DNA from: Dielma fastidiosa
Lineage (GTDB): Bacteria; Bacillota_I; Bacilli_A; Erysipelotrichales; Erysipelotrichaceae
DNA: 64,000 bases
Assembly (NCBI RefSeq): GCF_000313565.1
Contig: NZ_HE578930.1
Coordinates: forward strand, 1 to 64,000
Direction: 5' to 3'
Made by a program: the position numbers and the translations under genes. The notes under the pieces were generated by a model. That model searched no databases. It was not told where the DNA came from and saw only the letters and a program-made list of their open reading frames with translations. Positions within the stretch are counted from its first letter, which is position 1; the number at the start of each line of letters is the position of its first letter. Positions 41,630 to 45,718 of the stretch are shown one piece after another.

Positions 41630-41685
41630 ATTATATCAAAGCTGTCTGCCTTAAACAAATATTCAATTTCCTACCGCTTAGGAAA
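41630..41685 (-). promoter_or_regulatory. Promoter and operator A of the GH4-EIIB-EIIA operon
   Basis: TATAAT (minus strand, 41630-41635), a 17-base spacer and TTGTTT (41653-41658) form the promoter. Eight bases farther upstream lies TTTCC (41667-41671), 9 bases and GGAAA (41681-41685), extended to 7-bp arms TTTCCTA and TAGGAAA. The flank 41656-41673 matches the flank of operator B at 17 of 18 positions. AAAACGTTT on the minus strand overlaps the far edge as a weak cre-like core. Confidence 0.75.
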
Positions 41686-41689
41686 CGTT

Positions 41690-42307
41690 TTAAATAACCC
41701 TTGCAGTGACTTTTAACTCTATGTGATATCGGAAGAATGGGATTGCTTTGCCTAGATAATAAATGGCGATAAAAGTACCCACAGTAACCTTGCCGCCAAG
41801 TAAAAATCCAACAGCTAATAAACCTGTATCAAACACCCATCGAATTGGCGCATATGAAAATCCGCAGCGATTTACTAAACCTAAAAGCAGTGCATCATAT
41901 GAGCTTTTGCCTAGATTCATTGAAACCATAAGTGCAATTCCCAGTGCAATGAATGTAATTCCTACCGCAAAATAGAGAAATCCAATCATACCGCCAGCTG
42001 CGCCTTGAAGCAACCACATTGATAGATCAATACCATACTGCGTAAAAAAGGGGGCAATAATGGTTCCCAATCCAAGCTGCCGCCAATCAATCAGTGCTGC
42101 CGCTCCAACCATTGTAAGCGCCGTCCATTTGCTGGCTTCACCCACCGATATATTTGCTGTCTTCGCAAGCCCGTCATAGAAAACAGTGATTGAGTCTGCT
42201 CCCCAACCGGAGCGGTTGCATACACCAATTGCAGCACCTGTGATAAATGCACCTAGTATCAAAAAACAAAATCGTTTTATATACTGCGCTAAATACACTT
42301 TATTCAT
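41690..42307 (-). CDS. YczE/YitT-like integral membrane protein, copy 2
   Basis: A 205-residue paralogue of the 36391-37017 protein, with the same blocks: GVCNRSGWGADSITVFYDGL, DWRQLGLGTIIAPFF, NLGKSSYDALLLGL and GGKVTVGTFIAIYYLGKAIPFF. Five hydrophobic segments are seen. It is the last gene of the EIIC-PRD-YczE unit. A transport role connected to the sugar system is possible but not shown. ATG 42307 is selected with GAGGG upstream. Confidence 0.8.
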   Translation of the reverse strand: MNKVYLAQYIKRFCFLILGAFITGAAIGVCNRSGWGADSITVFYDGLAKTANISVGEASKWTALTMVGAAALIDWRQLGLGTIIAPFFTQYGIDLSMWLLQGAAGGMIGFLYFAVGITFIALGIALMVSMNLGKSSYDALLLGLVNRCGFSYAPIRWVFDTGLLAVGFLLGGKVTVGTFIAIYYLGKAIPFFRYHIELKVTARVI

Positions 42308-42335
42308 ATTCAACCCTCTCTGTCTGATGGCAGAA

Positions 42336-44258
42336 TTATTGAATCGAACCAGATAAATTGATTAATGCAGATAAGAACTTATTATTATCTGTTGCCTCGA
42401 TCAACATTTTCATTGATTGCTTATTTGCGGCAATCTGTTTAAAAATCTGAAACAACACGCGAACATCATCATTCTGCTTACGTTCAATTGCTAAAGTGAA
42501 AATTAACTGTACTGAACGGCCATCTTTCAACAACGGTTTCTTTAATATTGCAACTGAAACAGCTGTCTTATTAGCAAATGTCATAAGCGGATGAGGAATC
42601 ATAAAAAGATCATTAACAAAGGTCGGATAATTAATTTCCCTTTGTAAAACGTCCTTTGCAAATTCTTCTGCATCATTGATTTTATTGTACGTTTCCAGCT
42701 TCTGAGCCATATCGGTAATAATTGATTCAAACGTCGTTTTATCTTCATAAATCTTAATCATTTCCGGACTAAAATGTTTTTTTACAACTTCTCTGAATCT
42801 TTGACTGATTCTGATTGTATGAATCATATCATTCAAAAGCAATTGATCTTGTGAACTTGGCAAGCTGTTAATTTTATAAGTTGGAATAATTGGATGTAGT
42901 GCCATATCATTAGTCGATAATATCAAATCAACCGCATTTTCATTCACATAACTAGCTAGAGAATGAATCGGCAGTACGGTCTGAACATTTAACTGATTGC
43001 TGAAGTTATTTTTCAGCCAATTCAACAGAATATGGGAAACACTAAGCCGTGCTGAACTGATTAAGATCACATTTAATTTTTGATTTACATTCTCAAGAAA
43101 ATGCTCTAAATAGATTGCAATGTATGAAATTTCATCATCCTGAACATAGGTGTTTTTATATTTATACACGATATGAACAATTAACATAGAAATTTCATAA
43201 GCATATGGATATTTTTTCTTTACATCATCAAGAATTGGATTCAATAACTGAAACCCATTTTCAAGACGGCGCAGCATATATTCAAAATGAGCCAGCATAT
43301 TCAAATAAAGTGCTTCTGAAGTACGCAAATCAAAATTGTATTTATCCAATACTTCCTGACAGAATTCATCTAATACATGTATACTGAAATTGCTGATATC
43401 ACTTTCATCCTTTTCATCATTTAATTTGAATGTATGCAGAAATTGATTCAAAGAATACATATCCTGAGGATAAAGCGACCATTGTGCTTGTATGAGTACA
43501 TCAATCAGCCTTTTCACATTACTATCTATACCGCTATTTTCTACCTCTGCGGCTCGATAATCGTATTGGTTTCTGACAATCGCGATATAAATAGCACTTG
43601 CGGCCATAATCAAATTACCATCCGTCAGCATTACACCTTGTTCATTAAAATAATGTTTGATTTGTTCTAATAAATATTCATATTCACTTTGATCATAGGC
43701 ATCCGGCAGTAAATCTTTAAGATAATGTGTACCCGCGGATTCTTTAATTAAAACTTCATCTTTAATGATTTTGAACATTAATTCCCGTATTTTATGTTCA
43801 TCCTCAATAATGCGTACATACGATCCAGATATATTTAAAAGTTCAATTCCATATTTCTTTTTCAGCTGCTGCTGTAATTTAAGAATATCTTTATACACCG
43901 TTTGTGATGAAACATAGAGTCGTTCACCAATTTCATCAAGTTCCATATCTTCATCAAAAAGCAGTAAGCCAAGGATCGCATAACGTCTTTTTTCACTATC
44001 TGTATCTTCATTTTCGAGATTGCGATATTTGAATAAAAAATCTCGGACAAACTGGATATTTTCTGCTTGAAAATAATAACCACTCTTTTTCGATGATTTA
44101 ATGCAGCATTCATTCTGCCAGCGATCATTAATTTCACCTATTTCATGACGGATTGTTCTGGAAGACACACTTAAAAGCTCGGCGATTTTAGAACCGTGAA
44201 TACCTTGAGTATTGTTGAATATCAGCTCGATGATTTTAAGTTGTCTCCCAGTGAACAT
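42336..44258 (-). CDS. PRD-containing PTS-regulated transcriptional activator (MtlR/LicR type)
   Basis: A 640-residue regulator. Two N-terminal HTH domains (GIHGSKIAELLSVSSRTIRHEI; MELDEIGERLYVSSQTVYKDI) precede PRD modules (~190-395), an EIIB-like domain (~400-485) and an EIIA-Fru-like domain (~510-635). The EIIA His is kept in MIPHPL. The second PRD retains the His in LAHFEYMLRR, but the second expected His is Tyr (YIAIYLEHF). The EIIB-like Cys is absent (ISSARLSVSH). It lies between EIIC and YczE and is the best candidate to bind the three TTTCC-N9-GGAAA operators. Confidence 0.9.
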   Translation of the reverse strand: MFTGRQLKIIELIFNNTQGIHGSKIAELLSVSSRTIRHEIGEINDRWQNECCIKSSKKSGYYFQAENIQFVRDFLFKYRNLENEDTDSEKRRYAILGLLLFDEDMELDEIGERLYVSSQTVYKDILKLQQQLKKKYGIELLNISGSYVRIIEDEHKIRELMFKIIKDEVLIKESAGTHYLKDLLPDAYDQSEYEYLLEQIKHYFNEQGVMLTDGNLIMAASAIYIAIVRNQYDYRAAEVENSGIDSNVKRLIDVLIQAQWSLYPQDMYSLNQFLHTFKLNDEKDESDISNFSIHVLDEFCQEVLDKYNFDLRTSEALYLNMLAHFEYMLRRLENGFQLLNPILDDVKKKYPYAYEISMLIVHIVYKYKNTYVQDDEISYIAIYLEHFLENVNQKLNVILISSARLSVSHILLNWLKNNFSNQLNVQTVLPIHSLASYVNENAVDLILSTNDMALHPIIPTYKINSLPSSQDQLLLNDMIHTIRISQRFREVVKKHFSPEMIKIYEDKTTFESIITDMAQKLETYNKINDAEEFAKDVLQREINYPTFVNDLFMIPHPLMTFANKTAVSVAILKKPLLKDGRSVQLIFTLAIERKQNDDVRVLFQIFKQIAANKQSMKMLIEATDNNKFLSALINLSGSIQ

Positions 44259-45549: not shown

Positions 45550-45614
45550 AATAGTTTCCCTATCTCCTTTTCAAAACAATTACGCTTCGTCGACACTTAT
45601 TAATTGTTGATTCC

Positions 45615-45672
45615 AGTATAAAAGACTCTTATTCTTACCGCAAATATTTAATTTCCTAAGTGTGTGGAAATT
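45615..45672 (-). promoter_or_regulatory. Promoter and operator B of the EIIC-PRD-YczE operon
   Basis: TATACT (minus strand, 45615-45620), a 17-base spacer and TTGCGG (45638-45643) form the promoter. Exactly 8 bases upstream begins TTTCC (45652-45656), 9 bases and GGAAA (45666-45670), extended to AATTTCC and GGAAATT. This is the same geometry as at operator A. Confidence 0.75.
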
Positions 45673-45688
45673 GTAAGGATAATCAATG

Positions 45689-45718
45689 CAAATAAATGAT
45701 TTCCTATCCATAGGGAAA
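45689..45718 (-). promoter_or_regulatory. Operator C, third TTTCC-N9-GGAAA copy
   Basis: TTTCC (45700-45704), 9 bases and GGAAA (45714-45718) follow CAAATAAATGA, matching the operator B flank at 15 of 18 positions. Its centre is 48 bases from that of operator B. No promoter is seen at the matching distance, so it may be an upstream auxiliary site. Confidence 0.65.

Follow-up and report, generated by a model that had tools for sequence, protein, structure and literature searches.

A TTTCC-N9-GGAAA inverted repeat as the predicted operator of a CelR-type PRD activator in a GH4-PTS gene cluster of Dielma fastidiosa

Gene cluster and control regions

The DNA analysed here, called the window, is a stretch of 64 kb from Dielma fastidiosa in which a GH4 enzyme and a PRD protein are encoded together with the EIIA, EIIB and EIIC components of a PTS and several less expected proteins (Table 1). 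The best solved relatives of the GH4 protein are 6dux and 1u8x. The TTG listed as its start, at 41658, falls within the promoter, and the ATG at 41557-41559 fits. The enzyme resembles the GH4 6-phospho-alpha-glucosidases GlvA and AglB, but is paired with EIIA, EIIB and EIIC of the lactose/cellobiose family; the description as a glvA-like PTS regulon, given earlier in a sequence-only reading, is thus appropriate for the enzyme but not for the PTS, which is not of the Glv type. An FAD-dependent oxidoreductase gene (45753-47243, minus strand) lies upstream of the EIIC unit; in at least five relatives a homologue adjoins the EIIC promoter, often in divergent orientation, and the gene may be part of the system.

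Table 1 Features of the gene cluster and its control regions
Feature	Position	Strand	Remarks
Second YczE-like membrane protein	36391..37032	-	Possible end of the unit (co-transcription presumed)
OYE-type flavin oxidoreductase fused to Cof-type HAD phosphatase	37132..38925	-	One protein; PF00724, PF08282
Stand-alone RarA/MgsA C-terminal-domain protein	38949..39587	-	Without AAA+ domain
EIIA, lactose/cellobiose family	39547..39879	-	PF02255
EIIB, lactose/cellobiose family	39893..40189	-	PF02302
GH4, GlvA-type 6-phospho-alpha-glucosidase	40231..41559	-	PF02056/PF11975
GH4-unit promoter	41630..41658	-	-35 TTGTTT (41653-41658), 17 bp, -10 TATAAT (41630-41635)
Putative operator 1, TTTCCTAAGCGGTAGGAAA	41667..41685	-	Palindromic; in front of GH4 unit
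YczE-like membrane protein	41690..42313	-	Below curated cut-off
PRD transcriptional activator (predicted), proposed binder	42336..44258	-	HTH-HTH-PRD-PRD-EIIB-like-EIIA
EIIC, lactose/cellobiose family	44275..45549	-	PF02378; TIGR00410 above cut-off
EIIC-unit promoter	45615..45643	-	-35 TTGCGG (45638-45643), 17 bp, -10 TATACT (45615-45620)
Putative operator 2, TTTCCACACACTTAGGAAA	45652..45670	-	In front of EIIC-PRD unit
Putative distal operator 3, TTTCCCTATGGATAGGAAA	45700..45718	-	48 bp upstream of operator 2
Hairpin, likely terminator	45727..45750	.	Between upstream FAD-oxidoreductase gene and distal operator

The window contains three exact copies of TTTCC-N9-GGAAA, at the positions where the sequence-only reading had placed them. 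On the minus strand, operator 1 continues as GGAAA-TTGAATAT-TTGTTT-N17-TATAAT and operator 2 as GGAAA-TTAAATAT-TTGCGG-N17-TATACT, which confirms the reported order of a -35 hexamer, 17 bases and a -10 hexamer behind the first two copies. The distance of 8 bp to the -35 hexamer is also correct, except that on the transcribed strand the sites end there instead of beginning there, and the flanks, reported to match at 17 of 18 positions, are indeed similar (10 of 11 positions outside the operator), but seven of the counted bases belong to the operator itself. In the GH4 promoter, the -10 hexamer follows GGAAA at 31 bp, a distance also seen in relatives. The flank TCATTTATTTG is retained at the distal box, which however has no -10 hexamer 31 bp further on and no promoter of its own, so that the term three-copy regulon describes the boxes and not the promoters, which are found at two copies only. 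Both -35 hexamers have three of the six consensus bases and are therefore weak, and for this reason a consensus promoter scan missed the GH4 as well as the EIIC promoter. Promoters with such poor -35 hexamers usually need an activator, and the weak -35 boxes fit activator-dependent promoters.

With independent bases (iid model), 0.075 copies of the repeat are expected per 64 kb and the probability of three or more is about 7e-5. The whole genome of 3.6 Mb has eight exact N9 copies, against about four expected from the same model. As judged by eye, four of the five copies outside the window seem to be intragenic and the fifth (L007) immediately precedes a start codon, and no promoter is present at the right distance in the flanks of any of the five. 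The composite pattern TTTCC-N9-GGAAA-N6-ATTTG occurs without mismatches only at the three window sites; no site in the genome has one mismatch, and the next twelve have two, which is background level, so that the predicted regulon in this genome consists of the window cluster alone.

Conservation in related genomes

A search of genome contigs with the PRD protein alone yielded no relative, and a genome search combined with the DNA pattern was used instead. Among 245 genomes of the same order, 19 relatives of the PRD protein were found besides the window's own, and the surrounding loci, of about 10-18 kb, were compared. When all 1024 possible 5-base arms were ranked for intergenic inverted repeats in the 19 relative loci, in genomes that were chosen for carrying the PRD protein and of which some are close to one another, TTTCC came out at the top with 25 copies in 15 loci, followed by an AT-only arm in 10 loci. 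In a phylogenetic tree, the window protein belongs to a well-supported clade of 12, in which orthologues of the regulator are 28-40% identical. A box is present before the EIIC operon in all 12 clade genomes, as an exact copy in 11 of them (window included) and with one mismatch in L029, and its spacer is 9 or 10 bp, sometimes both in a single genome. Extra boxes precede YczE-like genes (L032, L036, L038) and second RarA-C-like genes (L035, L037, L038). At locus L040, of which the PRD protein (L021) is at the edge of the clade, no box was found at up to one mismatch. The sequence-only reading had proposed a motif search in this and related genomes, with absence of the motif as the outcome that would speak against it; the search showed the box upstream of the orthologous EIIC operons.

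The position of the promoter relative to the box is conserved as well. At nearly all sites the -10 hexamer lies 31-32 bp past GGAAA if ties are broken towards 31, and with unbiased picking this is still the case for 17 of 25 non-redundant sites, whereas in 2000 shuffled controls the best two-position bin held 3.65 sites on average and 9 at most. A constant distance from the left arm to TTTG was also considered and dropped, the distance from the right arm to the -10 hexamer being the better constant. Of the 12 clade genomes, 9 have the composite at the expected locus, as compared to 20 of the 233 others when occurrences anywhere are counted (Fisher p 2e-7).

The PRD regulator

Pfam matches in the regulator are HTH_11, Mga HTH, PRD (298-385) and PTS_EIIA_2 (495-632), while its first PRD and an EIIB-like fold are recognized only from alignment and a structural model, in which all domains are kept (mean pLDDT 85.7). 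This gives the architecture of CelR/LicR/MtlR-type proteins, with an HTH pair, two PRDs, an EIIB-like domain and a C-terminal EIIA(Mtl/Fru) domain, and, as is typical of that type, the regulator is encoded with its own PTS and, as in CelR and LicR systems, with a phospho-glycosidase. The RNA-binding CAT domain of the antiterminators BglG and LicT has no match in the protein, of which the N-terminus is an HTH domain. PRDs and a PTS signal are shared with sigma-54-type activators (LevR, ManR and CelR of Bacillus thuringiensis; PMC10864463), but the window protein has no Pfam match to the sigma-54 AAA+ interaction domain, and both promoters consist of -35 and -10 hexamers. PRD proteins are abundant in this organism, with 79 domain matches and about 45 proteins in the 3.6-Mb genome.

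CelR has been described as an activator for which phosphorylation of H226, H332 and H576 is needed for activation and phosphorylation of H284 and H391 is inhibitory (Streptococcus mutans numbering; PMC3585215). According to the alignment, two of the six CelR phosphorylation positions are kept in the window regulator, 332 as H324 and 576 as H556, whereas H226, H284, H391 and the EIIB cysteine are replaced by A222, F273, Y383 and S401. H324 and H556 are invariant in the clade; the histidine at 226 and the EIIB cysteine are absent in all 12 members, and equivalents of the histidines at 284 and 391 are absent in all six members that were aligned with CelR. In the strict sense of a protein with five phosphorylatable histidines and an EIIB cysteine, the regulator is not a CelR. 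Because equivalents of H284 and H391 are missing, negative control cannot work here in the same way as in CelR, and we infer that control proceeds through H324, H556 or direct contact with EIIB. With four of the six positions missing, the CelR model may not be transferable to the window regulator as far as signalling is concerned.

Comparison with characterised systems

The CelR site of Streptococcus pneumoniae has the consensus YTTTCCWTAWCAWTWAGGAAA. A literature search found no paper stating this consensus, and as an indirect test it was scanned over 84,980 named species, each represented by a single genome. Two matches each were obtained in four streptococcal records at the cel locus, one before the first gene and one before the PTS/celR unit, with the geometry box-N9-(-35)-N17-TATAAT. 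The streptococcal celR products match profile A1 with E values of 2e-92 to 8e-94 in L154, L161 and L169 (2e-92 in L154); in L159 the celR gene is split and the score lower. Other matches that were inspected had neither PRD nor PTS genes nearby, as chance hits would. Measured against this consensus, the sites described here have all characteristics of a CelR-type operator, namely TTTCC-N(9/10)-GGAAA located 8-9 bp before the -35 hexamer, with the -10 hexamer at 31-32 bp.

The two systems thus share the TTTCC-N-GGAAA repeat, a homologous regulator and a 17-bp promoter spacer, with the streptococcal -10 hexamer 32 bp past the box, as well as a layout in which a first or phospho-glycosidase unit and a PTS/regulator unit have one box each. 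They differ in the box spacer (9 in the window, 10 in streptococci), in the two of six phosphorylation positions that the window regulator keeps, in the GH4 6-phospho-alpha-glucosidase that takes the place of the phospho-beta-glucosidase CelA, and in the RarA-C-like, OYE-HAD and YczE-like genes and the distal box that are added in the window. A regulon reconstruction places CelR in the BglG family and has it regulate cellobiose genes (PMC3616900). Another related PTS-controlled activator is MtlR of Bacillus subtilis (PmtlA-PmtlR), which is autoregulated, has an operator upstream of the -35 hexamer at a distance of 7 bp, and is termed class II-like (PMC3217849). However, the PmtlA operator (primer s6210, TTGTCACAGTCATGTGC...) is without TTTCC/GGAAA arms (PMC3217849), and the window boxes are not MtlR sites in the strict sense of sharing that operator sequence.

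Within this genome, the same half-sites accompany a paralogous PRD activator, L129 (contig C8, about 148.5-149.6 kb), with three TTTCC-N8-GGAAA boxes around its gene and TATAAT 31 bp downstream of two of these. N9 boxes occur at the window locus only, among 20 large PRD loci of the genome, and nineteen further PRD loci have neither an N8 nor an N9 box. The clade of L129 mostly has N8 boxes, with N9 in some members, and N10 or N11 boxes are found in other PRD clades. A strict rule in which the spacer equals the clade is weakened by these N9 members and by the mixture of 9 and 10 in the window clade. The neighbours of L129 resemble YitT, asparaginase, CutC and DUF871 proteins (names by reading the sequence).

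Alternative explanations

Elsewhere in the genome, at sites that have no relation to the cluster, exact N9 copies are about as frequent as chance predicts, which would agree with boxes that are chance inverted repeats with coincidental promoters. Three copies in one locus, a conserved flank, the exclusivity of the composite and conservation across the order nevertheless make this hardly credible, and the comparative result contradicts it. Repressors too typically use inverted repeats, but the boxes lie upstream of poor -35 hexamers, without overlap and at one fixed distance, and CelR, the closest characterised relative, is described as an activator (PMC3585215), which renders a repressor very improbable. 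A different PRD protein, out of the approximately 45, might bind the boxes, the nearest candidate being the N8 paralogue on contig C8 (about 150 kb), which probably reads DNA in a similar way as the same half-sites occur in three boxes around its own gene. We regard this as quite unlikely, since N9/N10 boxes accompany the orthologue of the window PRD protein in 12 of 12 genomes, an 8-bp spacer is seen at no locus of its clade, and the paralogue is accompanied by N8 boxes of its own.

The role of the distal box is a separate matter that is compatible with binding by the PRD activator. It may be a functional second site that aids the proximal one, instead of a relic of a lost promoter, as box pairs 43-48 bp apart are found in several relatives and the flank of the distal box is kept. 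On the other hand, such a pair serves two divergent promoters in L038 and probably in the f2 loci, and no divergent promoter is visible in the window; moreover, 48 bp corresponds to about 4.6 helical turns, so two dimers would be on different faces of the DNA. A helper function is thus plausible but somewhat doubtful.

Proposed mechanism and implications

The PRD-type activator whose gene lies between the two promoters very probably has its operators in these boxes and would recruit polymerase to both. This assignment, already favoured in the sequence-only reading, gains support from the conservation of the box, its co-occurrence with the PRD clade, the fixed -10 distance and the likeness to CelR. 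As predicted from sequence comparison, the system would be the regulon of a PRD activator of the CelR type that extends no further than its own cluster, without a new mechanism. A dimer would read one half-site per arm of the TTTCC/GGAAA repeat, with centres 14 bp apart, and the activator bound just upstream of the weak -35 hexamer would bring RNA polymerase to the GH4 promoter and also, in an autoregulatory loop, to that of the EIIC-PRD unit. The signal would be PTS phosphorylation: HPr-P, in the absence of a preferred sugar, would activate the regulator, and in the presence of substrate, presumably an alpha-linked glucoside 6-phosphate, the cluster's own EII would stop phosphorylating it.

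A well-defined DNA site is herewith tied to one PRD regulator out of about 45 in a single genome. The rule TTTCC-N8..11-GGAAA, with the -10 hexamer at 31-32 bp, could predict regulons of many uncharacterised PRD activators, and, with four CelR phosphorylation positions lost, the smallest number of sites on which such a regulator can work becomes accessible to experiment. The spacing may act as a specificity code, but this stays short of proof, as both 9 and 10 occur in a single clade. A more far-reaching and rather unlikely proposal is that TTTCC/GGAAA is the half-site common to the PRD activators of one genome, with the spacer as specificity code (8 for the C8 paralogue, 9 for the window regulator, 10-11 for other clades), and that the window clade represents a stripped-down regulator that uses two phosphorylation sites only.

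The regulon further includes an orphan RarA C-terminal domain that is strongly conserved and for whose presence among sugar genes no reason is known. It is among the most conserved products of the cluster, being 60-77% identical across relatives, as compared to 28-40% for the regulator, with more than 80 invariant columns. The protein has the MgsA C-terminal fold (own model of moderate quality, mean pLDDT 69.8) and is encoded at each of the 11 PTS loci of relatives that were examined; in a wider search, 11 of 12 RarA-C-like copies (10 genomes) were found beside a lac/cel PTS gene or a GlvA-type GH4 gene. In some relatives (L032, L036, L038 and similar ones), the PRD/PTS/RarA-like cluster includes genes for a PNP_UDP_1 phosphorylase-superfamily protein and a phosphopentomutase-like metalloenzyme (assignments tested in L029 and L032), which suggests that some of these clusters handle ribosides or nucleosides and not glucosides.
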